Shown: piece by piece, positions 2,231 through 22,778 of the stretch
How positions within the stretch are numbered: position 1 is the stretch's first letter
Layout: every line of letters starts with the position of its first letter
Source: Fidelibacterota bacterium
GTDB lineage: Bacteria; Fidelibacterota; UBA8477
Length of the DNA: 34,278 nucleotides
Direction: 5' to 3'
Assembly: GCA_021734045.1 (NCBI GenBank)
Contig: JAIPJR010000023.1
Coordinates: 1-34,278 of the forward strand
The notes under the pieces: model-generated
Told to the model about the DNA's origin: nothing
Seen by the model: only the letters and a program-made list of their open reading frames with translations
The model's database searches: none
Program-made: the position numbers and the translations under genes

Positions 2231-2242
2231 CCCCGCTTTTTT

Positions 2243-6199: not shown

Positions 6200-6301
6200 G
6201 AGTAATGGTTCCTTTCACTATATTATCAGCATCATTAGCATTATCGAAGAGCGACAAATTCTGAACGACAATAGGGTAGTTTTTCAGGCCGTTCACACAA
6301 C

Positions 6302-6321
6302 AAAAATTGTTTGCTAAACAA
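6302..6321 (-). terminator. Weak intrinsic terminator candidate after alr
   Basis: On the minus strand a 6-bp AT-only stem TTGTTT/AAACAA with loop AGC is followed by TTTTT, about 40 nt after the alr stop. The stem is short and lacks GC pairs, so this may not terminate well. The remaining 6200-6300 stretch is AT-rich leader before the glycosyltransferase and shows no promoter I would defend. Confidence 0.3.
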
Positions 6322-6360
6322 CAATGTTTTATCTGTTTGTATAATCATATTTCCAAATCA

Positions 6361-7446
6361 TCACTGCGCATCATAAACACGGACTACTCGCGGGGAAATG
6401 CCACAGCATATTTCGTAGGGAATCGTTCCCAGTCGCCGGCTGACTGCTGCAATTGAAGTGTTTTTATCATCTCCGCCCAAAACCGTGAGGTATAGCCCCG
6501 ATTTAATGTCTGTCTCACCCAGATCGATCATGATATGATCCATAGTGACGGTGCCAATGACCGGAAATTCGAATCCATCAAATGTCACCCGCCCCCGGTT
6601 GGAAAGATCCCGACGATATCCGTCTGCATAGCCAATGCGCAGTGTACCAACCCGCGTCGAAGTACTGGCAAGCCAGGTTTCGGCATAACTTACCGGTTCA
6701 CCGGCTTTCAAAATGGATTGACGAATGAGCGGTGCGGTCACCCTCATCACCGGTTTCAGATCATTGATGAAATTCTTTGATGGTGTTGTATCATAACCAT
6801 ACAGCCCGATACCCAGTCGAATAGCATCCCATGAGAATTCCGACCTGGTGAGCATCCCTGCAGAGTTGGATAAGTGCCTTAGGCCCTCAAAGCCCATTTG
6901 AGCTAGATGCTTACACAAATCGGTAAAGGTGTCTCCCTGTTTCTGAACAGAAGCCTGATTGGTGGTATCGGCTGATGAGAGATGCGAGTACACCCCGGTA
7001 ACCTTCAAGTACCCGGAATCTTCATTAATTACATCCAGCACTTCATCCGGATGTAATCCCAGCCGGTTCATGCCAGTGTTCACATTCAGATGTACTGGAA
7101 TTAAGCGCGTAGCAGCACTTTTCAACTGTTTATAGTCTTCCAGACTCGTGATGGTGACTACGGCTTTGGGAGGTAACTGATTCAGTTCCTCCGGAAAGAT
7201 TCGTGAAAAGATGAGGATTTCCACATCGGGTATTTCACGGGCAATCTCCTGCGCTTCTTCCAGCGTCGCAACTGCCACCATGCGTATGTCAAACGCTTTC
7301 TGCAAAATCTTTACAACAGCGATTGCCCCATGACCATAGGCATTGGCTTTCACCACCGGTATGACCAACGCTGAACCGGTTAAGGTATTAAATTTCGAAT
7401 AATTGTTGATTAAGGCATTTGCCGAAATATGGCAGAGGGCTCTCAT
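6361..7446 (-). CDS. alr: Alanine racemase
   Basis: This is a PLP-dependent racemase that makes D-alanine for peptidoglycan. The PLP lysine is K33 in VVKANAYGHG. Other family blocks are LNVNTGMNRLGL near 120, HLSNSAG near 190, RLGIGLYGY near 210, the second catalytic Tyr in PVSYAETW, GYADGYRR, and GTVTMDHIMIDLG. At 361 residues it is normal length. The ATG fits the family N-terminus but has no obvious Shine-Dalgarno. The leader holds a candidate structured RNA ending in a U-run about 43 nt before the start, so transcription into alr may be conditional. Placement just upstream of the wall turnover cluster fits D-Ala supply. Confidence 0.95.
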   Translation of the reverse strand: MRALCHISANALINNYSKFNTLTGSALVIPVVKANAYGHGAIAVVKILQKAFDIRMVAVATLEEAQEIAREIPDVEILIFSRIFPEELNQLPPKAVVTITSLEDYKQLKSAATRLIPVHLNVNTGMNRLGLHPDEVLDVINEDSGYLKVTGVYSHLSSADTTNQASVQKQGDTFTDLCKHLAQMGFEGLRHLSNSAGMLTRSEFSWDAIRLGIGLYGYDTTPSKNFINDLKPVMRVTAPLIRQSILKAGEPVSYAETWLASTSTRVGTLRIGYADGYRRDLSNRGRVTFDGFEFPVIGTVTMDHIMIDLGETDIKSGLYLTVLGGDDKNTSIAAVSRRLGTIPYEICCGISPRVVRVYDAQ

Positions 7447-8100: not shown

Positions 8101-8589
8101 TTAACCCTTACTCCGCTTGGGTTTGCGAGCATTTTCCAATGCTTTTAAACGCATTTTCAGACCATCAAAACTATCAAATATTTCCGTTACACATCCCAGA
8201 ATCCAGGATGAAATTTTCTCGCGGGGAATCTCACTCACCAAATAGACCGGAATATTGTGGAGATAGGCCAGGGTCAGCTCACCCTGCGTTCCACCACCGG
8301 CCATAACATATTCATCCCACTTACAAATAATGTAATCGGTGTGAAATAATATGTACTTAAGGTCTTGTTTTATAATACGATGCATCACATCCTTAAATCG
8401 TGGTAAATCCGTTTTTTTCCACTCCCTGAAGAACTTTTGTTCATGCGCGGACAGGACATTGAATTCATTGTGAGCCGGATCGTGAACTTGATGGTGTAGT
8501 TCATTTTCCAGAAACGGACGCAGGTTCTCGCGCCATTCCCGGCCACCATCCGGCGCTGCTTCTATAGCACCTGCCAGGTAGACGTTCAT
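8101..8589 (-). CDS. Nucleoside 2-deoxyribosyltransferase-like protein
   Basis: The N-terminus MNVYLAGAIEAAPDGGREWRE has the YLAGxI start typical of the nucleoside 2-deoxyribosyltransferase-like fold. The middle has DYIICKWDEYVMAGGGTQGELTLAY, matching the region where family enzymes place the catalytic Glu (GTxGEL, near residue 108) before a VYLV strand. At 162 residues it is the usual size. Family enzymes move deoxyribose between bases or hydrolyse nucleotides, and which applies here cannot be told. A charged tail ends in KPKRSKG. The ATG overlaps the ABC permease stop by 4 nt, so it is translated as the last gene of that run. The pairing with an exporter is unexplained. Confidence 0.7.
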   Translation of the reverse strand: MNVYLAGAIEAAPDGGREWRENLRPFLENELHHQVHDPAHNEFNVLSAHEQKFFREWKKTDLPRFKDVMHRIIKQDLKYILFHTDYIICKWDEYVMAGGGTQGELTLAYLHNIPVYLVSEIPREKISSWILGCVTEIFDSFDGLKMRLKALENARKPKRSKG

Positions 8590-9344
8590 GCCCTACCCCG
8601 GTTATCCGTGAGCATATGAACAATACCTACCAGCAGAACCGTTTCAATAAATGCGATGATTAAAAACAGATTTTCAATACCACCGCGCAGGAAGCCCGAC
8701 TGGGCGCCGGCAATCAGTGTGTGGGTAGGCAACCAGCGTACAATGGATTCAAAAACCGGCGCGTAAAGGGAAATTTCCCAGCCAAGGCCTGAAACCAGGA
8801 AAAGAGGGAAGATGAAAAAAGCCACCAGCCGTCCTAACATCGGTCCCGGCGGGGTGTACATCCCGGCTAAATGTCCCCAGGCGGCGAATTGGATCGCCGT
8901 TAAAATCATAAATGCCAGAAACGCCTGGATATTCAGATCTACACCGGTTGAACCGGCCAGAAAAAGGGTGATGACCAATATGATTACGCCATGTATCAAG
9001 CCTTTTACTGCCCCCAGCGTAAGTTCCGCCAGGAGTAATCCGGGTTTATTGGGGAATGCCCCCATCAATACCACTTCATCCCATTGACGATTCCTGCGAT
9101 TTAAGACATGAAACCAGGCAACCGAATCAAATGCCGTTAAAGCGATGGTCATCAGTACCAGCCCGGGAATCAGATAGGCCAGGTAAGGAATACCATCCAA
9201 TTTGCCTACTACGGATTGAAATCCCAGTCCGAAAAGCAGAAAGAAGAGCAGGGGTAGCAGTAGATACAGAATCCCTTCACTGACTGGATTGCGCCGGAAT
9301 AGTGTGAGCTCACGCGACCATAACGCCCGGAATGCATTATTCAT
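8586..9344 (-). CDS. ABC-2 type exporter permease
   Basis: This is a 252-residue inner-membrane protein with six predicted helices, among them ILYLLLPLLFFLLFGLGF, YLIPGLVLMTIALTAF, VIILVITLFLAGS, AFFIFPLFLVSGLGW and NLFLIIAFIETVLLVGIV. The cytoplasmic N-terminus runs directly into the first helix (ALWSRELTLFRRNP), as in ABC-2 permeases of drug or polysaccharide exporters. The PxFLVSGLGWE segment near the fifth helix is the typical ABC-2 signature region. The gene overlaps the ATPase gene by 8 nt, so the two surely form one transporter. No substrate clue is visible. Confidence 0.85.
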   Translation of the reverse strand: MNNAFRALWSRELTLFRRNPVSEGILYLLLPLLFFLLFGLGFQSVVGKLDGIPYLAYLIPGLVLMTIALTAFDSVAWFHVLNRRNRQWDEVVLMGAFPNKPGLLLAELTLGAVKGLIHGVIILVITLFLAGSTGVDLNIQAFLAFMILTAIQFAAWGHLAGMYTPPGPMLGRLVAFFIFPLFLVSGLGWEISLYAPVFESIVRWLPTHTLIAGAQSGFLRGGIENLFLIIAFIETVLLVGIVHMLTDNRGRA

Positions 9345-10269
9345 TTATGCTTTGCTCCTGTGACAATGTGTGAATAAATGCATCGGCGAGTCGCGTTTTC
9401 TTCGGCATAAAGGCAACGATATTCTCCACATCAAAAAGCTGTAGAATTTCACTGGGATTTGTCTGATACCGGGTAATGATGGTATAGTCATTTTCATGAC
9501 GCGAAAAATCCAGCACCAATTCAGATCTGGTCAATTTCTGATACTCCGCTTCCTTAATTTCCTTAACCCGGGCTTCCAGCACCTGATTGGGTTGTTGGGC
9601 ATGCAGGACTTCTTCAACGGAGCCGTCCACCAGGATATGGCCATGGTTCATAATGATGAGCCGGTCAGCCACATGTTCCACCTCTGCCATGCTGCTGGTT
9701 ATCATGACGATGGTGAGACGTGAGCGTTGTTCCCGTAAATAATCCCAAATGTCCAGGGCTGTCTGCCGGTCCATGGATCGGGTCGGTTCATCCAGCAGGA
9801 GAATAGAAGGCTGTGTCAGCAGGGTACGCACCAATTGAATCTTCCGCTTCACGCCATAAGCCAGGCCATCCGGTAGCTGGTGCAGGAAGTCTATCAGATT
9901 AAATCGCTCCGCAAATCCTAAGATTCGGGCTTCAGCCTCCGCGTCCGAAATCCCGTGTAATTGGCAATGAAATACGAAATTTTCCAATACTGTGAGTTGC
10001 TCATCCAACACCACCTGCTGTCCCATATAGCCGACCTGCTGTCGGATTAGCATGGGGCGCGCCGTCAGATTTTGTCCGTTCACATATCCGGACCCCTGTG
10101 AAGGCCGGATCATCGTGGCCATAATTTTGAGTAAAGTACTTTTACCACTGCCGGAAGGTCCCACAATGGAAAAGATGGTCCCATGCTCCACGCCGAAGGA
10201 TAGATTATTTACGGCGGTAACCGGGCCAAATTTTTTCGTAATGTTTCGAAGGGTAATTGAAACTGCCAT
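9337..10269 (-). CDS. ABC exporter ATPase with degenerate signature and H-loop
   Basis: This is the nucleotide-binding subunit for the adjacent permease. Walker A is GPSGSGKST at 37-45, the Q-loop lies near Q84, and Walker B is SILLLDEPT at 155-163. Two functional motifs are off-consensus. The LSGGQ-type signature reads LAYGVKRK near 136-143, with Ala in place of the nucleotide-contacting Ser. The H-loop His is replaced by Ser (ITSSMAEVE, S192). The D-loop reads RSMD rather than SALD. Roughly 90 residues follow the nucleotide-binding core, as in DrrA-like exporter ATPases. With only one ATPase gene, a homodimer would carry the changes in both sites. Hydrolysis may be slow or the family may use a variant mechanism. 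Confidence 0.88.
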   Translation of the reverse strand: MAVSITLRNITKKFGPVTAVNNLSFGVEHGTIFSIVGPSGSGKSTLLKIMATMIRPSQGSGYVNGQNLTARPMLIRQQVGYMGQQVVLDEQLTVLENFVFHCQLHGISDAEAEARILGFAERFNLIDFLHQLPDGLAYGVKRKIQLVRTLLTQPSILLLDEPTRSMDRQTALDIWDYLREQRSRLTIVMITSSMAEVEHVADRLIIMNHGHILVDGSVEEVLHAQQPNQVLEARVKEIKEAEYQKLTRSELVLDFSRHENDYTIITRYQTNPSEILQLFDVENIVAFMPKKTRLADAFIHTLSQEQSINE

Positions 10270-10304: not shown

Positions 10305-11339
10305 CTACATCGGGTCTGAATTTGCAACAACTTCCGAATCAATTTTTATGCCTAAATCATCAAATGCGACCCAACAACGGGTACTCAAACCCTTTTCTTC
10401 ATCATATACATGAAGCGGTGGCTCAGAATGCTTACATCGCTCCTCTGCCACCGGGCAGCGGGGGTGAAATTTACACCCCTCCGGAAACTCTGTAGGGACA
10501 GGGACAACCCCTTCAATAACCGCGAGCCGTTCAACTTTCTTCTTGGGATTGGGGATGGATTTTAGCAATCCCTGTGTGTAGGGATGTTTCGGCGATTTAA
10601 AAATCGTCCGAATATCCCCCTCCTCGACAATTTTCCCGGCATACATGACAATAACCCGCTTGGTCACTTCCGCAATCACACCCAAATCGTGAGTAATGAT
10701 AATCACCGACATGTTAAACTGCTTCTGCAGTTCCGCGATTAATTTCAAAATCTGCGCCTGTACGGTTACATCCAGGGCAGTGGTGGGCTCATCCGCAATC
10801 AGTAGTTTGGGATTGCAGGACAATGCCATGGCAATCATAACGCGCTGGCGCATTCCGCCGGAGAGCTGGTGCGGATATTCATCCACACGCTGTTCCGGTG
10901 CCGGGATGCCCACCAGTTTCAGCATTTCGATTGCCCGTTTTCTCGCTTCGGTTTTGTCCACCTTTTGGTGCAACCGGATCGCTTCCATAATCTGATCACC
11001 GCAGGTAAAGACCGGGTTTAGCGAGGTCATGGGTTCCTGGAAAATCATGGATATTTCATTGCCACGAATCCGGCGCATTTTCTCTTCTGGTAAAGCGCGT
11101 ACATCAGTACCGTTGAAGGTGATTTCACCGCTGACGATTTCACCCGGCGGGTTGGGAATTAACCGCATGACTGACAGGGCAGTTACCGATTTCCCGCAAC
11201 CTGATTCCCCTACAATACCCAGGGTTTCACCCTTGTCCACATGGAAGGTGACATCATCGACCGCCTTGGCGAGTCCCTCCTCCGTGGAAAAAAAAGTCCT
11301 CAGGTTTTTCACATCCAGTAATCGCTCAGCCAAAATCAC
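10305..11339 (-). CDS. oppD: OppD/DppD-type peptide ABC transporter ATPase
   Basis: This ATPase powers oligopeptide or nickel/peptide import. Walker A is GESGCGKS near 43-50, the signature [15 protein letters not shown] lies near 157, Walker B is [14 protein letters not shown], and the H-loop is IITHDLGV. The oligopeptide-transporter C-terminal domain is present with its cysteine cluster ([14 protein letters not shown]), which binds an iron-sulfur cluster in some relatives. The track-length start is GTG immediately after AAGGA. A TTG two codons later is better spaced (AAGGAGTGATTTTG) and is the likelier start. No OppF partner is in the window, and the cognate permeases lie 7 kb upstream in the same direction with seven other genes between. 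Confidence 0.93.
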
Positions 11340-11384: not shown

Positions 11385-12212
11385 CTATGCACTTTCCGTC
11401 TGGTGCCTACCCCTCTCCCGGAATGCCTGCACACCCAGAATGATGACGATAAGGGCCAACAGCCAGTACGTGGCGTGATGGTACTCGGGTCCACTGAATT
11501 GAATTAAATCGTAAAACCGTCCGATGAGCAATGAGATACGTCCCATTACGGCAAACCCGAATGCGGCACCGAATGATATCATGAGAAACCAGATACCCAC
11601 CCTGCTGATTTTCCCAAACATTCCCGTGTGTTCCTTGGAAAAGAAGAAGTAGAACAGACCAGTCAGGGTTCCGATGATGATGAGAATCGAATTGATCGCT
11701 GTGCCCCAGCCGTCAAACAGCGGTAATGCCGATCCTCTGACCTGGGCCAGGATATTGGAGTTGAGAAAGCCGTACAATCTGAGCCCCGCAGCCAGACCTA
11801 CCACATAAGCCATAGACCAGCGCGCCAGCCATCCCAGTTTCCGCGAGAGGCGAAATAGCATGAAAACACCCAGGATAAAGGGCACCATATAGACCAGATT
11901 CATTTCATGCCCTTTGTCAATACCGCCATCAGGAAAAATCCCACTGTGGAACCAGCCGAAAAAGTCATAGATACCATACCAGGCCGCTCTTAATCCACCC
12001 ATTTCGCCATCCACTTTCGGCCACAAGCGCCCAAACAGATTGGGTTGGATCTGAGTCCAGAAAAATGTACTGGCCCAGTATCCGGCCGAAACGCCCACAA
12101 AAAGATGCTCGGCGGCTTTGTAAAAGGGATTGTCCTTATAGAGAAAACTGAAAATTGCCAGGGTCAGGAAGACCGCGAACCAGGCACCGATAATTTCTGT
12201 CGTAAACAACAT
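11385..12212 (-). CDS. Conserved polytopic membrane protein of the MutL-associated cluster
   Basis: I do not recognise a named family. The protein has 275 residues and seven or eight hydrophobic segments, for example IIGAWFAVFLTLAIFSFLY, NLVYMVPFILGVFMLF, SILIIIGTLTGLFYFFF and YWLLALIVIILGVQAF. Conspicuous polar blocks are YKDNPFYKAAEHLFVGVSAGYW near 25-46 and an exposed loop with GGLRAAWYGIYDFFGWF. No signal peptide or catalytic motif is evident. It is the last gene of the seven-gene block, 15 nt after its neighbour, and 45 nt before oppD. Its job is unknown. I infer an integral component of the complex built by the upstream genes. Confidence 0.75.
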   Translation of the reverse strand: MLFTTEIIGAWFAVFLTLAIFSFLYKDNPFYKAAEHLFVGVSAGYWASTFFWTQIQPNLFGRLWPKVDGEMGGLRAAWYGIYDFFGWFHSGIFPDGGIDKGHEMNLVYMVPFILGVFMLFRLSRKLGWLARWSMAYVVGLAAGLRLYGFLNSNILAQVRGSALPLFDGWGTAINSILIIIGTLTGLFYFFFSKEHTGMFGKISRVGIWFLMISFGAAFGFAVMGRISLLIGRFYDLIQFSGPEYHHATYWLLALIVIILGVQAFRERGRHQTESA

Positions 12213-12227
12213 GCTTGATCCTCCCGA

Positions 12228-13079
12228 TTAATATTTCTTCTGCGAGCGTTTACGCTCCAGAAAATAGGTGATATTCCCGAAAATGATGAATAGCACAATC
12301 ACCAGGTGAGCAATGGACTGGGCATCCATTCCCGAGGTTCCCAAACCCCGTTTGCCAACCAATGCTTCATACTCTGCCGCTCCGGGCATACCTGCGATAA
12401 CACCGCGCAACTGCCCGGCATTTTCATAAGGAATAATCTCATTCACCTGAATGGATGCTGTGCCGGTGGTCATGGGAACCCCCGTGGGATCACTGCCGTA
12501 CTGAACCCACTCTACCGTACCGGGGTAACCGGCGGAGAAACTGAACACCAAATCAAAATCCTTTAGATTGTAAACACCTTCCATCATGGGAATGGAGTCC
12601 ACCAAGGTATTTTGATAATCCACCGTGTAGAGTTTGCGTAAATTACTGGCAATCCCCTTTACCACCGCTTCATTCCCCGGACGAAAGCCCAACAGAACAT
12701 AATCTTTCCCATAGACAGAATTGTACTGTGGCGCAATGGCATTAAGCGCGTCGATTGCCATGAACTGACCGTCCGGCCATAGACAAACCACATAGACCTT
12801 AATGCCCTTCAGGAATGCGTGATGCAGTACTGCTTCAGACATGGGGTGAATTTCAGGTTTTGTACTGGGACCATACTCAAATGACATGAGCAGCCGGTCG
12901 CCTGCCTGTAGCGCATCTACCGCGTTAAATGAGCGCTGCGTTGTCTCCGTCGCCCGAATGGGAAGCCCAAGTGGCTTAATGAGTGGAATGAGTACCACGA
13001 TTGCGATGAGCAGGAAAATGACCCGCCGATCCACTTTCCCCAGCTTTATCAGAATATTGATGAATTTATTTTTATCCAT
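12228..13079 (-). CDS. Membrane-anchored protein with a central alpha/beta domain, unknown function
   Basis: I chose the ATG giving MDKNKFINIL (283 residues) because a longer frame would run back into the preceding gene and a GGGGGA tract precedes this start. One helix near residues 19-42 (FLLIAIVVLIPLIKPLGL) and one at the C-terminus (AHLVIVLFIIFGNITYFL) frame a soluble domain of about 200 residues. That domain alternates beta strands and helices: RLLMSFEYGPS, IKVYVVCLWPDGQFMAID, DYVLLGFRPGNEAVV, FDLVFSFSAGYPGTVEWVQY. The pattern suggests a Rossmann-like fold, most simply on the periplasmic side. No catalytic signature is recognised. The gap to the upstream gene is 4 nt. Confidence 0.75.
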   Translation of the reverse strand: MDKNKFINILIKLGKVDRRVIFLLIAIVVLIPLIKPLGLPIRATETTQRSFNAVDALQAGDRLLMSFEYGPSTKPEIHPMSEAVLHHAFLKGIKVYVVCLWPDGQFMAIDALNAIAPQYNSVYGKDYVLLGFRPGNEAVVKGIASNLRKLYTVDYQNTLVDSIPMMEGVYNLKDFDLVFSFSAGYPGTVEWVQYGSDPTGVPMTTGTASIQVNEIIPYENAGQLRGVIAGMPGAAEYEALVGKRGLGTSGMDAQSIAHLVIVLFIIFGNITYFLERKRSQKKY

Positions 13080-13083
13080 GGTC

Positions 13084-14106
13084 CTATTCCCCCATGAAGG
13101 ATTTTTCGATTCCGAGGATGATCCGCAAACTGGTGCCAATCATTCCCAACGCAATCCCAATCATAATCGCCCGGGCACCGGCGATATTGGGAACGGTATA
13201 AATCCACTCCTGCAGTACCGGCAGAAACAGAAATCCCGGTTTATCCACCGGCCACCCTGAGAGAGCACCGGCTACTGTAACAACCAGCACACCGGCACCC
13301 ACCACCGCGAAAGTGGTCATCTTATTTTTCCACAAAATATTGGCCCCAACACCGGCAGCCAGGACGATGAGATAGGCGATAAACCAGGCTGAGATATTGG
13401 ATCCGATGGGAACCCGTCCCAGCATGATGATGATTCCGGAAAGCAGGAGCAACGTGGCTTCGAAATTACGGATACGGAACGCACGATACGACGCAGAGGC
13501 CACAAAGAATGCCAACAGCGCGAACATGGTGGCTGACATGGGTGTGAACAGGTATTTGAATAACCAGTTAAATACCGTTCCCTCCGCTAATAAATGCTCC
13601 CCCCATGATTTCTCGCGTAATTCCACATCAACGCCGGCTGTTTTCAACTGTTGGGTATAGTATTCAGCGCCTTTGGCACTAATGAAAATGTGGCGCACAT
13701 CGTAGGTGTCACTGATTTCCAGCATAGGCGTAACCTGTTCAATAGTCAACTGCTCCATCTCTGCCACCACGGGAGCAACCTGCTGGATATTGGCACTCAC
13801 ATTCTGGATGTGCACGTAATTGGCACCCTTCCAGAAAAACCCGGCGGTGATAGCAAAGAAAAATCCCAACACAGCCAAAATGCTGTAAGGCCAATCCTTC
13901 TTTTTCCGGATGATTTTGGTCATCTGCAGCTTGAGCAAATTTAAAGCGCCCAAAATAATGGCAAAACTGGCGATGATATCGAACCACTGCGTGGCATCAT
14001 CATTCACGAACCCCTCAAAGGTCGGTGAATCCACAAACCAACCATACAGAGTGAAGATGCCGGTGATGAACACAATCGCGATAGGAACTTGTCGTTTCCA
14101 GAACAT
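13084..14106 (-). CDS. Polytopic membrane protein with a soluble loop domain, unknown function
   Basis: The ATG at 14104-14106 is preceded by a strong GTAGGAGG Shine-Dalgarno and begins MFWKRQVPIAIV, so nine upstream codons are dropped, giving 340 residues. Three helices at the N-terminus (to about residue 95) are followed by a roughly 90-residue soluble region that contains helical stretches such as QQVAPVVAEMEQLTIEQV and the segment YDVRHIFISAKGAEYYTQQL. Five more helices follow (for example ATLLLLSGIIIMLGRVPIG and AWFIAYLIVLAAGVGANILW). I do not recognise a family. The gene lies 8 nt after its upstream neighbour and 4 nt before the next, so co-translation is likely. Confidence 0.77.
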   Translation of the reverse strand: MFWKRQVPIAIVFITGIFTLYGWFVDSPTFEGFVNDDATQWFDIIASFAIILGALNLLKLQMTKIIRKKKDWPYSILAVLGFFFAITAGFFWKGANYVHIQNVSANIQQVAPVVAEMEQLTIEQVTPMLEISDTYDVRHIFISAKGAEYYTQQLKTAGVDVELREKSWGEHLLAEGTVFNWLFKYLFTPMSATMFALLAFFVASASYRAFRIRNFEATLLLLSGIIIMLGRVPIGSNISAWFIAYLIVLAAGVGANILWKNKMTTFAVVGAGVLVVTVAGALSGWPVDKPGFLFLPVLQEWIYTVPNIAGARAIMIGIALGMIGTSLRIILGIEKSFMGE

Positions 14107-14114
14107 AACGCCTC

Positions 14115-14981
14115 CTACTCCACCCTTAGCCATTCTTTAAAATCAATATCAATCCAACCCAGATCGTGAACGCCATTCAGAATGAAAATCAGCAAAATAG
14201 CAATCATGACGATGAACTTACCCATATCCTGTCCCTTCACGCTGCCCAATAACGCCGGCTTTTGAGAGAGATAAGCGGAAGCTGTCAAAAATTCCTCCCC
14301 AATCAGTGTATAGTCACAAGCTGTCACAAAAAATGGAATCTGGGATGGTGATGCTGTTCCGGCAATTTGGATCGCACCAATGCTGTTACCGGTTTCTGCC
14401 AGGATCAATGACTCTGCATAAAATTTCCCCTGGTAAAAACAGGCGGCCGGCTTTTCGCGCAGCATAATACCATCCACACCGGCAGCATACGCAAATTGCT
14501 CATCGGTGAGGTAATGTACCATGTCGTCGTTGAACAAATCAGGCCGTCCCACCGACAGGTAGGATTCCTTCACAATCTCACGACCCGCTTCCATCACGAT
14601 CGAACGGGAGACCGGGACATTAAGATTGGTCTCATATGTGGCGGTCATTTTGGCCACATGCCCCAGGATAATGACACCGGCAACCGTTTCCACCTGATCC
14701 ATATCCATGATTCCCGGGACATAGAGAACCGGCTTTCCCATTTCTGTAGCGCGTCCCACAGCTTCATCAAAGGCTTTCAATCCCGGAATAGTCCGCAGGT
14801 AGATTTTTTCGCCACTATTGGCTCGGGCGATGTAATACAGAATCGTAATGGATAAGGCCATGACACACACGAACATGGTCAACCGGTTACCATTAAAATA
14901 GGGATGTCCAAACGCGTAATAGACGATGAACAATACGGCAAAAATGCCGGCTCCCATTAAGATTGTTTTTCCTGATTTCAT
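14115..14981 (-). CDS. Membrane-anchored DUF6754-like protein, unknown function
   Basis: Two helices at the N-terminus (residues about 7-24 and 33-52) and one near the C-terminus (FIVMIAILLIFILNGV) surround a soluble domain of about 200 residues. The domain has regular alpha/beta blocks: KPVLYVPGIMDMDQVETVAGVIILG near 82-106, VSRSIVMEAGREIVKESY, DGIMLREKPAACFYQGKFYAESLILAETG, and FFVTACDYTLIGEEFLTASAYL. From memory this resembles the family catalogued as DUF6754. I cannot confirm that here. Conserved polar residues in SLILAETG and TACDY would be the first to examine. The gene begins 77 nt after the 119-residue protein and shares the direction and spacing of the block. Confidence 0.77.
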   Translation of the reverse strand: MKSGKTILMGAGIFAVLFIVYYAFGHPYFNGNRLTMFVCVMALSITILYYIARANSGEKIYLRTIPGLKAFDEAVGRATEMGKPVLYVPGIMDMDQVETVAGVIILGHVAKMTATYETNLNVPVSRSIVMEAGREIVKESYLSVGRPDLFNDDMVHYLTDEQFAYAAGVDGIMLREKPAACFYQGKFYAESLILAETGNSIGAIQIAGTASPSQIPFFVTACDYTLIGEEFLTASAYLSQKPALLGSVKGQDMGKFIVMIAILLIFILNGVHDLGWIDIDFKEWLRVE

Positions 14982-15058
14982 ACACCCTCCCTTTGGTCAG
15001 ATCATTCGATCCGGCAACAGCAGCATACATCAACGAAGCTGCTGCGGGTTAAATCATA

Positions 15059-15418
15059 TCATTTCTGAGCGTGCGTCTCACTACTGGAAGATGGGTGCTC
15101 AGATTCAGCCGGCATTCTGTCAGTCTCAGAGCCTTTTTCAGCCGCATCGAGTCGCTCAATTTCCGATACCAGGAATTCCACATTATGATAGTCTTCCAGC
15201 AGCTCACTGAGTTCGTAGTACGTCTCTGCCCGCACAAATGCGGTGAGAATGGGACCGAAAAAAACCATCGCCTGACTGCTGATAAACGATAGCGGCTTCA
15301 TCATTTCCAGCGCAAAAACGGCCGGTACGGTCATGCCCCGCTTTACGATTTTCTCCGCGATCCGTGTTAAAATAACCGGATCCGGTGCAGCTGATGTTTT
15401 TTCGTTAAATCCCAGCAT
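15059..15418 (-). CDS. Small conserved protein of the MutL-associated cluster, unknown function
   Basis: The product has 119 residues and I do not recognise it. The first half contains PVILTRIAEKIVKRGMTVPAVFALEMMKPLSFISSQAMVFFG written as three amphipathic or hydrophobic helices, perhaps one membrane-associated hairpin near residues 30-62. The second half is acidic and helical (YYELSELLEDYHNVEFLVSEIERLDAAE), then a low-complexity Ser/Glu tail. It starts 12 nt after the stop of the 375-residue gene, in an AT-rich context with no clear Shine-Dalgarno, so translation may be coupled to its neighbour. A small membrane-peripheral adaptor is a guess from composition. Confidence 0.65.
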   Translation of the reverse strand: MLGFNEKTSAAPDPVILTRIAEKIVKRGMTVPAVFALEMMKPLSFISSQAMVFFGPILTAFVRAETYYELSELLEDYHNVEFLVSEIERLDAAEKGSETDRMPAESEHPSSSSETHAQK

Positions 15419-15430
15419 ATTAAATTTTTA

Positions 15431-16558
15431 TCAGTCGGTCTCCACCATCTCCAAGTTAGCCCGGGGAACTGTTTTTACATCCCCATTTTCAAACTCGATA
15501 ACCGCTACACGCACCATGGTTTCCGATTCCATTTTTTGCAATTCTGGCGGCAGTTTTTTTACATGTCCCAGTTTCCCAAAGTACGGCGCCCGGATGACAC
15601 GCACCAGCGAACCTTCGCCCATTCCGGCGGACAGATCATGGGATTTCTCCGATTCTGTCGTCTCAGCTGGCAGTGTAATCACAATTTCCGGCCGAATCAC
15701 ACCAGCACGAATCTGTGTAGCGCCATTCAGTGAAGCAAAATGTCCATCATGGGACTTTAGTAGATCAAATGTGCGGCGCGCCATATTCACCTTCCCAAAT
15801 CCCTCGGTAACCACCATGGTCGTGACAAGGTCTTCGGAACCCGTAATGGCAACACCCAGCGTGTAGCCCAGAACTTCCTTCAATTGGTTGTAATCAAACC
15901 CACCGGTCACAATACCTGCCACACCCACGCTGGCTGCCTTTAGGTAAGCCTCCAGTGAAACATAATTCCCTGCTACCAGAATCTTGCCTTTGTATTCCGG
16001 CTTGATATCATCCGGGTTCAGCTCTTCTTTGCGGTTTGCGACCATCACTTTTAATTCCCCGCGGGTCTCACCACCGATACCAAAAATTCCCTGAATGAGG
16101 GCCGCCTTTGATTCAATGACGACACCTTCTTCAGGAATCACTTCGTGGACGATGCCGGAAATGTAGGCATCCACTTCTACCGGAATAGGTGCTTCACGAA
16201 TCACCACCTGCCCCGTGGTACCAGAAATTTGTTCAATGGTACCCTCCGTGGGCGATTCCACTTTGGATTTGAACAGACCGAATAAGCCAGCACTCTCTGC
16301 TAGCATTTCACCCTGTTTAATTGTGTCCCCCACCGCTTTCTTCATCATCTCCGGAACCTCTGAAGCCTCGATATTCAGCAGATTGGCTACATTCACCATC
16401 TGTACATTTCCCGGCAGATTTGTCGAACAGACGATCGTTTCCGGTGTGACCTCCACACCTTTTTCCACCGTCACCTTGCCTTTGAGTGGGAGAATCCGTG
16501 GTTTTTGCACCGTGGTAGCATGCAAGACTTTTAATCCGGGCGTATATGCGTGTGCCAT
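15431..16558 (-). CDS. Protein with barrel-sandwich-like N-terminus and KOW-like C-terminus, partner of MutL-like ATPase
   Basis: No named family is recognised, but three regions can be seen in 375 residues. Residues about 20-165 are beta-rich with repeated turn motifs (AVGDTIKQGEMLAES, SKVESPTEGTIEQISGTTGQVVI, EAYISGIVHEVIPEEG-like), which resemble the barrel-sandwich hybrid of lipoyl/RnfC-type domains. Residues about 190-300 are alpha/beta with KILVAGNYVSLEAYLKAASVGVAGIVTGG. Residues about 314-372 read like a KOW/SH3 barrel: GSLVRVIRAPYFGKLGHVKKLP, then VRVAVIEFENGDVKTVPRANLEMVE. No signal peptide or membrane helix is present, so it is cytoplasmic. Its ATG overlaps the MutL-like stop (TAATG), a strong sign that the two products are made together. 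Confidence 0.8.
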   Translation of the reverse strand: MAHAYTPGLKVLHATTVQKPRILPLKGKVTVEKGVEVTPETIVCSTNLPGNVQMVNVANLLNIEASEVPEMMKKAVGDTIKQGEMLAESAGLFGLFKSKVESPTEGTIEQISGTTGQVVIREAPIPVEVDAYISGIVHEVIPEEGVVIESKAALIQGIFGIGGETRGELKVMVANRKEELNPDDIKPEYKGKILVAGNYVSLEAYLKAASVGVAGIVTGGFDYNQLKEVLGYTLGVAITGSEDLVTTMVVTEGFGKVNMARRTFDLLKSHDGHFASLNGATQIRAGVIRPEIVITLPAETTESEKSHDLSAGMGEGSLVRVIRAPYFGKLGHVKKLPPELQKMESETMVRVAVIEFENGDVKTVPRANLEMVETD

Positions 16559-18402
16559 TATTCGCCCTCACTTTCCGGATATTCATTCATGGCATCTGAC
16601 CATTGTTTCAATTTTTCAATCCGCTCATTCTGGTTTTCAGGCAGGGCGAATGGTTGCCGGCCTCGGGTGTCGAAAATCAGTCCTTCCACGCCACCGTACA
16701 AATTGGTTTCAATCGCCGTCCCCTTACCCTTACCCAGGTCCAGATTTTTATCCGGTGTCAATTCCGCCCACGTCGCCTCATAAGGTGCTTCAATCACCTC
16801 CAGCGTTCCGGGCATAAGCTCTTTTTCCACCGTCCGACCATCCGGAAGAGTGAGTTTGATAACCAGCGCCGGTTTTCCGGCCTTCATTTTCCCAACCGGT
16901 GCAATACAGGTCCCCAACCGGATTAGGCAATCTTTCTCAAATACTTCCAGGGCTGCCTGCTCCGCGCTTTTGCGAATATCCGGTTTATCCACATTGGCCA
17001 AAACACCCAACTGAGGCATCATAAAAATGGAATCCACAGCCAACTGGGTAATCCCCTCCGGCATAAAGGCATCAATCATCATCTTCGCTGACTGTGACCG
17101 ACGTGGCGCGTGGGACAAAACACCACCTGATCCCACCAATAAATCCAGTTCCATCATATCCACTAGCGTCTCACCCGATCCGCTCTGTTCAAAAGCATCC
17201 GAGATGGTACGCTCGGTTTGAACACCCTTGAGACTCACCGCGAAGGATTTGTGCTGAATAAAACTGAGACGCAAAGCCTCCCGGGCCAATGCCTGTTCAA
17301 TTTTCAGCTCTTCCAGTGATTGGGGAATGGTGGTGGGGCGAATCATCTTGTTGGCAATGCGGTTGGCAAGTTCCTTCTCATCAATAGGAAACGGTACCCA
17401 CCTGATAACATTTTCGATGGTGGCTTCTGCCAACACATTGGTGATGGAATAGCTCATTCCCAGATTGGCGGAAACGGTACGGTTGAAGGTCTTTTTGAAT
17501 ACGGAAAATACATCTGTCGTGGCACCTCCGATATCAACACCGACCACCGAAATATCATCGCGTTTGGCAATCATCTCAATGAGTGCACCCACCGCACCGG
17601 GTGTGGGCATGATGGGGGCATCGGTCCAGGACATGAGCTTTTTATAGCCCGGCGCCTGAGCCATCACATGCTCCATGAACAAATCGTGAATTTTATCCCG
17701 CGAGGGTGTCAGGTTTTCCCGCTCCAGAACAGGGCGAATATTTTCCACCACCGTTAAATCGGTGATATCGCCCAGCGTCTCCTGGATTTTGTCCTGCGCC
17801 TTTTTATTCCCGGCATAAATCACCGGCAATTTGTAGCTGCTGCCCAGACGTGGCTTGGGTTTCGCCGCTTTTAGAATTTCCGCCAATTCCACCACATGGC
17901 TGATGGTACCCCCGTCAATACCACCCGACAGCAAAATCATATCGGGACGTAATTGGCGGATACGCTCAATTTTCTGATGCGGCAGGCGACCATCATTGGA
18001 AGCCAGCACATCCATCACAATGGAACCGGCACCTAATGCCGCACGCTGGGCACTTTCACCAGTCATGGATTTTACCACACCGGCCACCATCATCTGCAAT
18101 CCACCACCGGCAGAGGATGTGGAAACATACACATCAACGCCCTTGGGTTTCTCACCCTCGGCGTGTTCCGGTCGCAGAATCGTATCCCCGTCCAAAATCA
18201 TCCGACCGGAGAGCTCTTCCACCTCGCGAACCGCATTCAGTACACCCCGGGTCACATCTTCAAACGGTGCTTCCACTGTTGTTGGTGCCTCGCCACGCGC
18301 GGTAAGCCGGTAACCATCATCTGTTAATTCGATAAGAATGGCCTTGGTTGTGGTGGATCCACAATCCGTCGCCAGGATTGATTTGAGTACTATCTCAGAC
18401 AT
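16558..18402 (-). CDS. MutL-type ASKHA ATPase (glutamate mutase MutL family), no mutase nearby
   Basis: At 614 residues this matches the MutL family, named for the gene between the two glutamate mutase subunits in clostridia. The ASKHA nucleotide-binding core is clear: phosphate-1 loop TDCGSTTTKA at 12-21, STSSAGGG at 94-101, LLSGGIDGG at 157-165, and phosphate-2 loop VDIGGATTDVF at 289-299. A C-terminal beta-rich extension includes APVGKMKAGKPALVIKLTL. MutS/MutE-type cobalamin mutase genes, a B12-binding DxHxxG motif and cobalamin genes are all absent from the window. Instead the gene leads a block of six unknown proteins, four of them membrane proteins. I infer a repurposed ATPase, perhaps a chaperone or motor for that complex. 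Confidence 0.88.
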   Translation of the reverse strand: MSEIVLKSILATDCGSTTTKAILIELTDDGYRLTARGEAPTTVEAPFEDVTRGVLNAVREVEELSGRMILDGDTILRPEHAEGEKPKGVDVYVSTSSAGGGLQMMVAGVVKSMTGESAQRAALGAGSIVMDVLASNDGRLPHQKIERIRQLRPDMILLSGGIDGGTISHVVELAEILKAAKPKPRLGSSYKLPVIYAGNKKAQDKIQETLGDITDLTVVENIRPVLERENLTPSRDKIHDLFMEHVMAQAPGYKKLMSWTDAPIMPTPGAVGALIEMIAKRDDISVVGVDIGGATTDVFSVFKKTFNRTVSANLGMSYSITNVLAEATIENVIRWVPFPIDEKELANRIANKMIRPTTIPQSLEELKIEQALAREALRLSFIQHKSFAVSLKGVQTERTISDAFEQSGSGETLVDMMELDLLVGSGGVLSHAPRRSQSAKMMIDAFMPEGITQLAVDSIFMMPQLGVLANVDKPDIRKSAEQAALEVFEKDCLIRLGTCIAPVGKMKAGKPALVIKLTLPDGRTVEKELMPGTLEVIEAPYEATWAELTPDKNLDLGKGKGTAIETNLYGGVEGLIFDTRGRQPFALPENQNERIEKLKQWSDAMNEYPESEGE

Positions 18403-18435: not shown

Positions 18436-19470
18436 TTATTGTTTAAGTCGCGGGTCAAGGGCATCGCGAAGTCCTTCGCCCACTAAATTATAAACCGTTA
18501 CCGTGATAAAAATCGCCAATCCGGGAAATGTGGTAAGCCACCAGCCGCTGGGTAACATGTCCCGGGCACTGGATAGCAACGATCCCCAGGTAGCCTGTTC
18601 CGGTGGAGCCCCGAATCCCAAAAAGCTCAGCCCTGACTCAATCAATATCGCCGCAGCAACACCAAAGGTGGCCGTTACCAGCACGGGTGTAAGTGTATTG
18701 GGCAGGACATGCCGGAAAATGGTGCGAAAATCACTAAAGCCCAAAGCCTTTGCGGCGGTCACATAGTCTTCATTCTTCACTTTAAGAAATTCACCCCGGG
18801 TAAAACGCGCCACACCGGTCCATCCGGTCAACCCGAGAATAATCATGATATTGATAATGGACTGTGTCTGCACAACCGCCACAATGGTGATAATCAGGAA
18901 CATCCTGGGAAAGGTTATCATCACTTCAATTAATCGCTGAATAATCACATCCACCCAGCCGCCGTAGAATCCAGCCAGCGCACCCAGTATCATGCCAATG
19001 GTAACATAAATCGCCACCGCCACAAAACCGACCAATAGCGAGACCCGCGACCCGTGAATGAGCTGGGATAGCACATCGCGTCCCAATTCATCGGTTCCAC
19101 AGAGATGGGTTGAATTCGGCGGCATCAATTTTCGTTTCAAATCATAATCATTAGGTCCAAATGGAACAACCGGCCAGACCGCCCAGTCCCCTTCTTCAAA
19201 CTTGCTGGCTAGTAATTTCCACTGCTGGGTTTTAAATTCATCCTGCCACTGCATGCCAAACATTTCCACACCATATTCACGCAGAACCGGTGCGTAATAC
19301 TCGCCCTTATACTTCATTATCAGCGGTTTGTCATTGGCCAGAAAATCAGCAAAGATAAAGATGAAGAGTAGCACATAAATCACATGCAGGCTGTACAGAG
19401 CCAGTTTATTACGAGCGAATTGACGCTTAACAATGTCCAGGTAGGTGCGGGATTTTTTCTGTTGCTTCAC
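18436..19470 (-). CDS. Peptide ABC importer permease, YejE/DppC-like
   Basis: This is the second permease of an oligopeptide importer, 344 residues. After the first helix (ALYSLHVIYVLLFIFIFADFL) comes a long periplasmic loop, about residues 46-122, beginning NDKPLIMKYKGEYYAPVL. That phrase closely recalls YejE of the microcin C/peptide importer. It is followed by LCGTDELGRDVLSQLIHGSRVSLLVGF and the EAA-type loop with GFSDFRTIFRHVLPN. The start is a GTG sharing its G with the TAG stop of the partner permease (TAGTG). The gene sits 33 nt before the MutL-like gene. Confidence 0.92.
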   Translation of the reverse strand: MKQQKKSRTYLDIVKRQFARNKLALYSLHVIYVLLFIFIFADFLANDKPLIMKYKGEYYAPVLREYGVEMFGMQWQDEFKTQQWKLLASKFEEGDWAVWPVVPFGPNDYDLKRKLMPPNSTHLCGTDELGRDVLSQLIHGSRVSLLVGFVAVAIYVTIGMILGALAGFYGGWVDVIIQRLIEVMITFPRMFLIITIVAVVQTQSIINIMIILGLTGWTGVARFTRGEFLKVKNEDYVTAAKALGFSDFRTIFRHVLPNTLTPVLVTATFGVAAAILIESGLSFLGFGAPPEQATWGSLLSSARDMLPSGWWLTTFPGLAIFITVTVYNLVGEGLRDALDPRLKQ

Positions 19471-20873
19471 TACCGGCTCTCCTCAAAGGTGATACGGGGA
19501 TCCACCAACGCGTACAGGATATCGGATAATAAAATTCCTGCCAATGTCAAAATCGCGCTGAGCGTGGAGACGGCCATAATGATGGGATAATCGCGATACA
19601 ATACCGCATTGAATGCCAGTTGACCGATTCCGGGGATGGAGAATATACTTTCAATAATAATCGATCCCGAAATGGCCAGAGGCAGCAGATTGGCCAGCAT
19701 GGTAATGATGGGGATTAAAGAATTTCGCAGCGCATGTTTGTACACCACAATTTTCTCAGATAATCCCTTGGCGCGGGCGGTCCGGATATAGTCCTGACGA
19801 ATGACCTCCAGCATTGAACCGCGCATATACCGTGATAATGCCGAAAAACTACCGTATGTCCAAATAATCAGCGGTAAAATGATATGATGCAGCATATCCA
19901 GCAGGTATTCACCTCGTCCCATGAGTTCCGCCCCCACACTGTGAAGGCCGGAAACCGGGAACCAGTCCAGGAAGTCACCTCCCCCGAAGAAAACAATCGC
20001 CATGGTAGCGACCCAAAAATTCGGCAAAGAGTAAAGAATAAACAGTATGACAGTCGTGACCTTATCTCCCAGCGTGTATTGATGGGTAGCGGAGTAAATA
20101 CCCAGTGGAATTGCCACCAGATACGCAATAATGAATGATGTCAGGGTGAAAATGAGCGATACCGGCACGGTTTCTTTAAAATGCTCCCACACCGGACGAT
20201 TATCCTTGATGGAATTTCCGAAGTCAAACCGTATCATGCGGCCCAGCCAGCGCGGGTACTGGGCATCCGTAATAATCATGGCGAGTTTTTTCAGTGTGGA
20301 AATCTGATAATCAGATTCCGCCCCCGGCTTGAACACACCGCTGGAGTCCTCCCCACCGTAAAACCATTTGTTCACGTATGCTTTGGACGCCATCAGAGAC
20401 ATTTCGGGCGTGATAGACAGTTTCTGCTTGAGGGTTAAGACTTCCAGAATCGCCCGCTGTTCCGGCTCGGTGAGGTTTTGGTGGATTAGTTGGTCAACCA
20501 AAAAAGGGACCGCCACGTCGTCTGCTTGTTTCAGCGGCTCCAGCGCATCATCCCATTCGCGGGAGTTCTGATCCGGTCCAGTAGCAAGAAAACCACGTAC
20601 GTCCTCCCAATCGGACTCGTAGGTGAACACTTTGAAATTCAATAAAACCGGTTTATCCAGGCCATAGATTTCCCGGGTCTGCTCCACCACCTGCTTAGCC
20701 AGATTCTGATCGGACGCCAACCCGGTTTGCTGGCTGCCCATCTTAAACGCTGTGGGATCACCAGGCGCCATTTTAATGATGATAAAAATGATTATAGAGA
20801 TACCAAAAATAGTGGGGAAAATAAGGAGTATGCGCTTGAGGATGTAATTAATCAATTGAGCGTCCCCATGCAT
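19470..20873 (-). CDS. Peptide ABC importer permease, YejB/DppB-like, with a large periplasmic insert
   Basis: This is the first permease of the importer. The N-terminus YILKRILLIFPTIFGISIIIF, the YGLDKPVL block near 70, RMIRFDFGNSIKDNRPV near 212-228, and the EAA-type loop (DYIRTARAKGLSEKIVVYKHALRNSL) are all family features. At 467 residues it is about 130 longer than DppB. The extra part, about residues 82-207, lies in the first periplasmic loop and is helical, with HEAT-like phrasing (VAVPFLVDQLIHQNLTEPEQRAILEVL split into two helices). A TTG six codons in, at 20855, is preceded by GGGGAC at good spacing and gives MINYILKR, so it may be the true start. Confidence 0.92.
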   Translation of the reverse strand: MHGDAQLINYILKRILLIFPTIFGISIIIFIIIKMAPGDPTAFKMGSQQTGLASDQNLAKQVVEQTREIYGLDKPVLLNFKVFTYESDWEDVRGFLATGPDQNSREWDDALEPLKQADDVAVPFLVDQLIHQNLTEPEQRAILEVLTLKQKLSITPEMSLMASKAYVNKWFYGGEDSSGVFKPGAESDYQISTLKKLAMIITDAQYPRWLGRMIRFDFGNSIKDNRPVWEHFKETVPVSLIFTLTSFIIAYLVAIPLGIYSATHQYTLGDKVTTVILFILYSLPNFWVATMAIVFFGGGDFLDWFPVSGLHSVGAELMGRGEYLLDMLHHIILPLIIWTYGSFSALSRYMRGSMLEVIRQDYIRTARAKGLSEKIVVYKHALRNSLIPIITMLANLLPLAISGSIIIESIFSIPGIGQLAFNAVLYRDYPIIMAVSTLSAILTLAGILLSDILYALVDPRITFEESR

Positions 20874-20921: not shown

Positions 20922-22778
20922 TCATGGTGCCATTCCCACATTCGCTCCAGAACTAACCCTTCGCCACCAGCTCACATTGTTATACCCGGGACGAATGGGA
21001 ATCCACTTCACATCCTGAAAGACCCGGTCATACGCACCCGGGTCCCGCTGGTAGAACATAAAGGTGTAAGGTTGCTCCTCGTGGAGAATTTCCTGAAACC
21101 GCCAGTACATACTGTCACGCCTGACCGGATTCATCTCATACCGGGCGGCGATAATTAATGAATCGGCTTCTGCATTCCGGAAACCAATATAATTAGAGCC
21201 CCGGTTACCGATATTATCCGAATGCCAAATCTGATATGGATCAGCTTGCAACCCACCAATCCACAGCAGCATTACACAATCAAACTGCCGGTCCCGGAGA
21301 TTTTCCACATACACAGACCATTCCAATTGACGAATGCCCACCACAATCCCGATTTTCTGTAAATCCTCTTTCATCATAAGGGCCAACAGCTTAGAGCCCC
21401 GGGAACCTGCCGATACGGAAAAGATGAATTTGAACGGGACCCCGTCCTTATCACGGATACCATCGCCATCATGATCAATCCAGCCGGCTTCGTCTAACAA
21501 TTCAACAGCGCGATCTGGATCATAAGGCCACCTTGGAATCGTGTCATTATACTGGGGACTAAAGGGATAGAACGGACCGATGGTGGGAATGCCCAGATCA
21601 TAGCCGATATACTTATTATACGCATTCCGGTCAATCAGCATCGTCATAGCCTGTCGAACCCGCTTATCCTGGAAATAGGGTTTATCATTGTTCCAGCCCA
21701 CATAACTATAAGCCGGCACCACAAATGTCACCTTCTGGAATTTTTCCAGAAAGTCCGGCGTGTTGGTCTGCTCGAAATATTGAATCGCCCGCATACGGGG
21801 TAAAAAATCCACATCCCCCGCCTTCAGGGCCGTGAGCATCGCCGTGGCATCACTGATGGATTTGACGATGATGGTATCCAAATACCCTGGCTCCTCTGTG
21901 AAACCAGAGATATGCGGTTTTTCCTTGTTCCAGTAATTCTCATTACGAACCAGCATCATGTATTCACCGGTTATCCAACGATGAAACTTGTAGGGGCCAC
22001 TCCCTATCAATTTCCCTGCATCCATGCCAGCTGGTCGATTCAGTGGGTTGGTGTTGAATTGGTCAGCCCATTCCTTGATATCCGACTCATTGTTAAAAAC
22101 TTGCGGATCTTTCAAATCCTGGACATCGAAACGGTCCATCATGCCGTTGGGATCCCACTGATGTTTCGGCAGGATTGCAAACCCGCCCATATATTCCAGA
22201 TTCAGAAAATAGGTGTCCGAGGTACGGACAATAAAAGTGTACTTATCTGGTGTTCGGGCTTCCACCACATTTCGATAATAGGCGCGTAAGGGTGCATCAT
22301 CCACATAGGGATTCATAATCGCCTTCAGGCTGAATAGGACATCTTCCGATGTGAGCGGTTTTCCATCATGCCAGGTAATGTTTTTGTGCAGATGGAAGGT
22401 GTATGTTTTTTTATCCTCCGAAATCTCATAATGCTGAGCCAGCACCGGGCGATTGTACTCCCAGGTGGTGTAATCGTAATTAATCAGGGATTCATAGATA
22501 TAGTCTAAGAATCGTTTGGCCGCTGCCGATGTGGAGGTGTAGTAATTCAGGTTCTCCGGCTCCGCAGATTCCGCCTTTATCAGCGTACCGCCTTTGCGAG
22601 GCGTTTCATGCGTGGGGGATGAATTAAAAATCTTCACATCTCCCGTCAGATCGACCTTAACACCGCCTGCCTGACCCAATATCTCTTCGTAATTCGCTCG
22701 GGATTTCGTGTCCACAAGATTGGTGAGTAAAATCAACGCCAGCAGAATAGAAAGTTGTATCAGGATTGAACGCTTCAT
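20922..22778 (-). CDS. Peptide ABC importer substrate-binding protein (SBP family 5)
   Basis: This is the periplasmic binding protein of the adjacent permeases, with 618 residues and the family-5 architecture. After a signal or anchor helix (SILIQLSILLALILLTNLV) come the usual landmarks: LAQHYEISEDKKTYTFHLHKNITWHDGKPLTSEDV near 112-146, LIGSGPYKF near 262, VRQAMTMLIDRNAYNKYIGYDLG near 385-405, and FDCVMLLWIG in the C-terminal lobe. No lipobox Cys is visible, so it may be soluble or held by an uncleaved helix. Ligand specificity cannot be read. It sits 11 nt after cdsA and begins the importer block. Confidence 0.93.
   Translation of the reverse strand: MKRSILIQLSILLALILLTNLVDTKSRANYEEILGQAGGVKVDLTGDVKIFNSSPTHETPRKGGTLIKAESAEPENLNYYTSTSAAAKRFLDYIYESLINYDYTTWEYNRPVLAQHYEISEDKKTYTFHLHKNITWHDGKPLTSEDVLFSLKAIMNPYVDDAPLRAYYRNVVEARTPDKYTFIVRTSDTYFLNLEYMGGFAILPKHQWDPNGMMDRFDVQDLKDPQVFNNESDIKEWADQFNTNPLNRPAGMDAGKLIGSGPYKFHRWITGEYMMLVRNENYWNKEKPHISGFTEEPGYLDTIIVKSISDATAMLTALKAGDVDFLPRMRAIQYFEQTNTPDFLEKFQKVTFVVPAYSYVGWNNDKPYFQDKRVRQAMTMLIDRNAYNKYIGYDLGIPTIGPFYPFSPQYNDTIPRWPYDPDRAVELLDEAGWIDHDGDGIRDKDGVPFKFIFSVSAGSRGSKLLALMMKEDLQKIGIVVGIRQLEWSVYVENLRDRQFDCVMLLWIGGLQADPYQIWHSDNIGNRGSNYIGFRNAEADSLIIAARYEMNPVRRDSMYWRFQEILHEEQPYTFMFYQRDPGAYDRVFQDVKWIPIRPGYNNVSWWRRVSSGANVGMAP

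Follow-up and report, generated by a model that had tools for sequence, protein, structure and literature searches.

MutL-family proteins are usually explained as accessories of glutamate mutase, which raises the question of what such an ATPase does at a locus where it is accompanied by membrane proteins and no mutase. The locus lies in a contig of an uncultured marine Fidelibacterota bacterium (JAIPJR010000023.1, assembly GCA_021734045.1), and by the window we mean the whole stretch of DNA analysed, 34,278 nucleotides, which is the entire contig (C96) of a 2.5 Mb assembly that is 92% complete. On its minus strand, at 11385-18402, seven ORFs lie head to tail, all of them real: the MutL-family ASKHA ATPase g1, the soluble protein g2, the small protein g3 and the membrane proteins g4 to g7 (Table 1). 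A sequence-only reading of the window had described an orphan MutL-type ATPase with six unknown co-directional companions, four of them membrane proteins, and had proposed an ATP-driven membrane complex. Its coordinates and gaps were reproduced: given conserved starts (ATG at 14106 for g5 and at 13079 for g6), the intergenic distances from g1 to g7 are -1, 12, 77, 8, 4 and 15 nt. Its assignment of g1 to the MutL family was borne out, none of the scanned window ORFs matched a cobalamin-mutase subunit, and hydropathy gives 3, 8, 2 and 5 transmembrane (TM) helices in g4, g5, g6 and g7 and none in g1, g2 or g3, with soluble stretches between helices in g4, g5 and g6. The description of the six companions as unknown stood for five of them, as g2, g3, g5, g6 and g7 have no Pfam family above cut-off in a profile scan of window ORFs, and fell for g4, a full member of DUF6754 (PF20539; 388.7 bits, cut-off 27). 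Our tentatively preferred answer to the opening question is that g1 and g2 form a soluble ATPase unit that drives or resets inner-membrane modules composed of g4, g5, g6 and g7.

Gene order, co-occurrence and predicted folds

We surveyed 60 genomes around the window's lineage, together with further relatives taken as the best 80 of 552 confirmed in the genome collection; most of the genomes surveyed are metagenome bins. DUF6754 is present in 38 of the 60, and the nearest named relatives with the same genes belong to Candidatus Neomarinimicrobiota, the host phylum in what follows. Labels among the best 80 comprise Neomarinimicrobiota, Zixiibacteriota, Stahliibacteriota/WOR-3, Caldifarciminota, Latescibacterota, Eiseniibacteriota, Fermentibacterota, Calditrichota, Electryoneota and Coatesbacteria, and the system spans at least nine bacterial phyla. 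A mobile origin is not supported, with no plasmid match for g2 or g4 and no phage match for g4.

Within the host phylum the order g1-g2-(c8)-g3-g4-g5-g6-g7 is almost invariant across about 60 loci, c8 being an optional small membrane gene directly before g3 (L022-L041, e.g. L026 16493-16909) with a weak YcxB-like match. Counts of downstream neighbours, which include some loci from one genome fetched twice, are 50/52 for g1-g2, 60/61 for g3-g4, 62/62 for g4-g5, 60/61 for g5-g6 and 60/60 for g6-g7 in host-phylum loci; in loci from other phyla, g5 follows g4 in 53 of 57, g6 follows g5 in 51 of 53 and g7 follows g6 in 45 of 49. Median gaps within the cassette, over both sets of loci, run from -1 to 10 nt, and the order of the block is far beyond chance. 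Outside the host phylum, g4-g5-g6-g7 is the sole invariant unit, with tandem arrays of as many as three copies; the genes g3, g1 and g2 lie upstream of it, inverted or elsewhere (g3 precedes g1 in 11/13 such loci). Conservation of the order across relatives, whose failure the sequence-only reading had named as a refutation, holds within the host phylum; outside it only the cassette keeps its order, g1, g2 and g3 often occupying other loci, and the seven-gene block is a lineage-specific arrangement.

The two parts of the system also occur together. Completeness is 90% or more in 38 relatives, of which 26 carry g1, g2 and g4 together and 12 lack all three; five genomes are discordant for these genes, all of them 65-89% complete. 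Across 29 genomes, mostly from other phyla, g1 is over cut-off in 28, often unlinked to g4, and the g2 profile is matched in 28, in one case via a divergent paralog only. Canonical g1 and g2 are normally present in one copy each in these genomes, and the copy number of DUF6754 ranges from 1 to 7 (median 4), exceeding one in 25/29. Paralogs of the cassette sort into orthologous groups, each with characteristic neighbours, and in Zixibacteria the first, second and third positions of tandem cassettes fall in separate clades: paralogous cassettes are old and specialised.

Because MutL and g2-like domains are fused in paralogs (Rosetta-stone evidence), we regard g2 as the direct partner of g1. Single ORFs carrying both occur as distant paralogs from an Eisenbacteria and a Fermentibacteria genome (L156 3923-6898, 991 aa; L157 8732-12007, 1091 aa), and in a third genome the two appear as overlapping ORFs (L158 2960-5537). 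A second, divergent MutL(-g2) paralog without an adjacent cassette is found in some genomes (these three loci and L159 1-1570). Over the 26 members of the g2 family, RnfC_N is matched in 25 (best 5e-7), Biotin_lipoyl in 19 and KOW in 16. The barrel-sandwich hybrid domain of g2 is similar to the N-terminal one of RnfC and NqrA; the matches of g2 to these proteins are confined to that domain, and no redox partner subunits are recognised in the block.

Structure models were made for g4 and g6 only, the latter beginning two residues before its Met, and in each AlphaFold2 places a Rossmann-like domain between TM helices (pLDDT 89.3 for g4, 94.6 for g6). The nearest solved structure to g4 is Sir2 (Z 11.9, rmsd 3.5, 143 aligned, 12% identity), its core domain having no PDB sequence match, and that to g6 is 1kjn (Z 10.5, rmsd 3.4, 140 aligned). 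A Foldseek match of g4 to MurQ (E 0.007, TM 0.33) was too weak and was left unused. Homology between g4 and g6 is unsupported by sequence profiles, hhalign having aligned only a TM segment at a probability of 5%. By the positive-inside rule the N-terminus is inside in 34 of 42 g4 homologs and in 52 of 54 g6 homologs, which predicts a cytosolic domain for g4 and an outside one for g6. Many invariant residues of both proteins stand in loops after strands; for g4, family-wide invariant residues cluster in loops after predicted strands (e.g. G90, E190, G208-T209, G228-E230), a clustering which, judged from sequence position, would resemble that of ligand-binding Rossmann domains. DUF6754 bit scores exceed 340 in matches across the phylum. 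Many DUF6754 proteins outside the window's lineage are extended at the N-terminus by as much as ~260 aa (e.g. L103 9218-10801); the profile of this added part matches fibronectin type III (FN3) domains, and its predicted location is outside the membrane. Matches of the g4 alignment to Titin come from this FN3-like extension alone and were set aside. Most g5 homologs have about 6 TMs, that of the window 8, and an insert of ~90 residues is present in the window's lineage.

Relation of g1 to GlmL

GlmL, the mutase accessory protein, belongs to the same ASKHA ATPase family as g1, which scores 421 bits against PF13941 (cut-off 27), and in an alignment with four annotated GlmL every g1 keeps its phosphate-1, phosphate-2 (DIGGATTD) and adenosine motifs intact. 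Against the curated NCBIfam models g1 falls below cut-off (NF040745, 230/475; NF040744, 211/600; TIGR01319, 172.8/204), and in the tree g1 and its paralogs form a clade apart from GlmL with support of 100/99. A C-terminal domain of ~130 aa, ending GG..G...D.RGR, is found in all g1 and is absent from GlmL. Annotated GlmL sit between glmS and the mutase E gene in four reference records; such a context is absent around g1, which unlike GlmL comes with a constant partner, g2, and a membrane cassette.

The mutase is missing from the genomes as well as from the neighbourhood: MutE (PF06368) is over cut-off in 0/60, the positive control being matched in 4/4. Lysine aminomutase (PF09043) was likewise matched in 0/60, though with no positive control matched, so that this result is uninformative. 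Nearly every genome has methylmalonyl-CoA (MM-CoA) mutase and B12-binding domains, whether or not it carries the block. A strict tie between the block and MM-CoA mutase was rejected, as a second copy is present in the block-less family f3 and genome G032 and missing in several block-bearing f6 genomes. Strict co-occurrence of the block with mutase genes elsewhere, which would have refuted the sequence-only reading, is thus seen neither for MutE nor for MM-CoA mutase, and the view of g1 as an orphan ATPase, tied in conserved order to membrane proteins rather than to glutamate mutase, stands. We conclude that g1 is not a leftover of vitamin B12 metabolism. In the window's own genome, the second MM-CoA mutase match (G000:C85:4278-5807) reads through one TAA, and similar single stops occur in several relatives; the TAA may be the normal gene end.

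A proposed mechanism and its competitors

The architecture, that is gene order, co-occurrence, copy-number asymmetry, the g1-g2 fusion, the ASKHA motifs and the predicted folds, is well supported, and from it we infer the physical contact between pair and cassette, the direction of energy flow and an envelope role. In the mechanism we propose, g1 and g2 would be a cytosolic two-subunit ATPase unit common to the whole cell, and g4, g5, g6 and g7 the subunits of an inner-membrane module with one putative Rossmann-type ligand-binding domain per face, g4 inside and g6 outside, the two faces being joined by polytopic g5 and g7. The unit would dock on the cytosolic domain of g4, and ATP turnover by g1 would be passed through g2, possibly with g3, to g4, so that the membrane module is driven or reset. 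The module may move or process an envelope-related substrate, an outside ligand being bound via g6, and in species with several cassettes one ATPase pair would serve them all. Recurrent envelope neighbours (cdsA, opp, SLBB/Poly_export, ExbBD-TonB, NfeD/SPFH and sugar transferase genes) accompany the cassettes. The ATP-driven membrane complex of the sequence-only reading accordingly keeps its place as the leading reading, as an inference from genes, narrowed to a soluble pair and a four-gene cassette; we put it forward as somewhat short of probable. More doubtful again is the stronger form, in which the system is a new class of ATP-driven membrane machine, found in at least nine phyla, whose ASKHA ATPase and barrel-sandwich adaptor are a single shared engine for several four-subunit modules.

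Group II ECF transporters offer a parallel, several S-components there being served by a single energising module (PMC7755397). The likeness is one of logic only: here too there is one ATPase unit per genome and several membrane modules, a copy-number pattern with which sharing would agree. The ATPase is of the ASKHA rather than the ABC type, the membrane part is made of four subunits and includes Rossmann domains, homology was looked for and not found, and among families over cut-off g1-g7 match neither ABC ATPases nor EcfT. DUF6754 is a family without known function, for which the constant partners g5, g6, g7, g1 and g2 are set out here. The open-licence literature searched holds nothing on DUF6754, nothing useful on orphan glutamate mutase L and no mention in the Caldithrix genome paper, and in that literature the system is undescribed. 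If true, the mechanism would replace the glutamate-mutase-accessory explanation of MutL-family proteins in many uncultured phyla, expose a widespread and strictly conserved membrane system kept even by marine genomes of ~1 Mb, and add the unusual example of an ASKHA ATPase linked with modules in the membrane, one engine for many.

Several points weigh against this mechanism. One genome, assembled in one large contig (G068), has five DUF6754 and g2 with no g1 match, and another (G065) has g1 and no g2. Where g1, g2 and the cassette are unlinked, the link between pair and cassette rests on co-occurrence; where they are linked, presence or absence of the block in the host phylum is partly one event. 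As modelled, g4 and g6 have Rossmann folds of common types (best Foldseek E 6e-3 for g4 and 6e-4 for g6; Z 8-12), which makes ligand binding a guess. Both g5 and g7 are predicted from hydropathy to be polytopic, and a translocation path through them would be conjectural. The envelope neighbours vary by lineage and many are housekeeping genes.

Nearly as likely as the engine is a reading in which g1 and g2 are an ATP-dependent, GlmL-like chaperone or reactivator that resets a damaged or inactive state of an envelope-modifying enzyme complex formed by g4-g7. Membership of g1 in the Pfam family of GlmL points this way, a single soluble pair for many modules in the membrane suits a chaperone no less than a motor, and the very high conservation of g4 noted above resembles that of an enzyme. 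However, no cofactor motif or catalytic triad is recognised in g4 or g6, and the g6 domain, given its predicted place outside the cytosol, would be remote from ATP and the usual cofactors; taken by itself we hold this reading to be rather unlikely.

The surroundings of the block in the window suggest another partner. An oligopeptide ABC-transporter operon encloses the block, with oppABC upstream and oppD downstream on the same strand, so that the self-contained block of the sequence-only reading, which had missed the flanking opp genes, does not survive. The layout oppABC-[g1-g7]-oppD is found in the window's genus, its order, L041 and L053, OppC precedes the block again in L029, L034-L037, L051 and L053, and OppD directly follows g7 in 12/56 host-phylum loci. 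The block could on this evidence be an auxiliary part of the importer, with which it shares an operon in the window and several relatives. Yet many host-phylum loci and the mapped loci of other phyla have no adjacent opp (L039, from a ~1 Mb genome, keeps all seven genes without it), and g1-g7 contain no SBP, BPD_transp_1 or ABC_tran domain, all of these being in the flanking genes. Linkage to opp is a feature of some Neomarinimicrobiota and fails to account for the system elsewhere, which leaves the auxiliary role improbable. Equally improbable is a role like that of SPFH/NfeD assemblies, in which the system would be a platform for membrane stress or signalling and not a transporter: NfeD, SPFH and CBS genes do lie between two cassettes in Zixibacteria (L092), and a DUF4388 gene is part of an ExbBD-linked operon in WOR-3, but such neighbours are limited to few lineages, and g5 and g7 are large polytopic proteins.

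Two further explanations have very little left to recommend them. That g1 is an ordinary GlmL, for a glutamate or other cobalamin mutase encoded elsewhere, is suggested by the Pfam family name and by the MM-CoA mutase genes in the genome; we rejected it, as largely refuted, on the three NCBIfam cut-offs, the separate clade with its extra domain, the lack of MutE in 60 genomes, and the presence of MM-CoA mutase in block-less genomes in copy numbers not strictly tied to the block. A fortuitous operon of functionally unrelated genes, to which several plain housekeeping neighbours (cdsA, the recA region, tmk) might point, is contradicted by a g4-g7 order kept across at least nine phyla, by duplication of whole four-gene units and by the co-occurrence of unlinked g1 and g2.

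The locus and its neighbours

Coordinates of the block and of the flanking opp genes are collected in Table 1. A promoter and terminator scan came out near background and says nothing on transcription units.

Table 1. Genes of the block and adjacent opp genes in the window, with the evidence for each.
Feature	Position	Strand	Description	Evidence or context
g1	16558..18402	-	MutL-family ASKHA ATPase, 614 aa, extra ~130-aa C-terminal domain	PF13941 E=6.9e-126, residues 9-473
g2	15431..16558	-	Soluble, 375 aa, with barrel-sandwich-hybrid and KOW/SH3-like parts; partner of g1	RnfC_N, Biotin_lipoyl and KOW matches; g1-g2 fusions
g3	15059..15418	-	Small protein, 119 aa, no confident TM	No Pfam family; position before g4
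g4	14115..14981	-	Membrane protein of 288 aa in DUF6754; Rossmann-like domain, predicted cytosolic, flanked by TM2 and TM3	PF20539 388.7 bits
g5	13084..14106	-	Polytopic in the membrane, 8 TMs; TM3 and TM4 separated by insert 102-194 (numbered on ORF from 14133)	TM counts
g6	12228..13079	-	Two-TM protein, Rossmann-like domain, predicted extracytoplasmic	AlphaFold2 model, topology
g7	11385..12212	-	Polytopic in the membrane, about 5 TMs; carries conserved motif DNPFYKFAEHLFVG	No Pfam family; follows g6
OppC permease	18436..19470	-	BPD_transp_1 E=1.4e-32, OppC_N	Ends 33 nt upstream of g1
OppB permease	19470..20873	-	BPD_transp_1 E=1.6e-37	
OppA-type solute-binding protein	20922..22778	-	SBP_bac_5 E=3.7e-84	
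OppD ATPase	10305..11339	-	ABC_tran 6.9e-32, oligo_HPY 8.4e-22	Starts 45 nt downstream of g7

Beyond oppD, an ATPase at 9337-10269 without oligo_HPY is paired with an ABC-2 membrane protein (8586-9344), and by its domains looks like a separate exporter rather than OppF. Further downstream of the opp genes and the block, on the same strand at 959-7446, are genes for a NamZ exo-muramidase, SpoIID, a ROK-type protein, a glycosyltransferase and alanine racemase. This set looks like one for peptidoglycan recycling or turnover and, together with the peptide importer, suggests a link to the cell wall in the window's lineage.

Particular cassettes of other phyla have settled surroundings of their own. 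In a WOR-3 operon (L088 21-9519, with orthologs in L100, L111, L116 and L120), g4-g7 are followed by DUF4388, two unclassified proteins of ~210 aa, two small membrane proteins, ExbB, two ExbD and TonB, an arrangement conserved across genomes. In three WOR-3 genomes, one specific group of cassettes comes after a Wza-like SLBB/Poly_export protein (L173 10424-11677, L176 7559-8887, L180 7545-8846).

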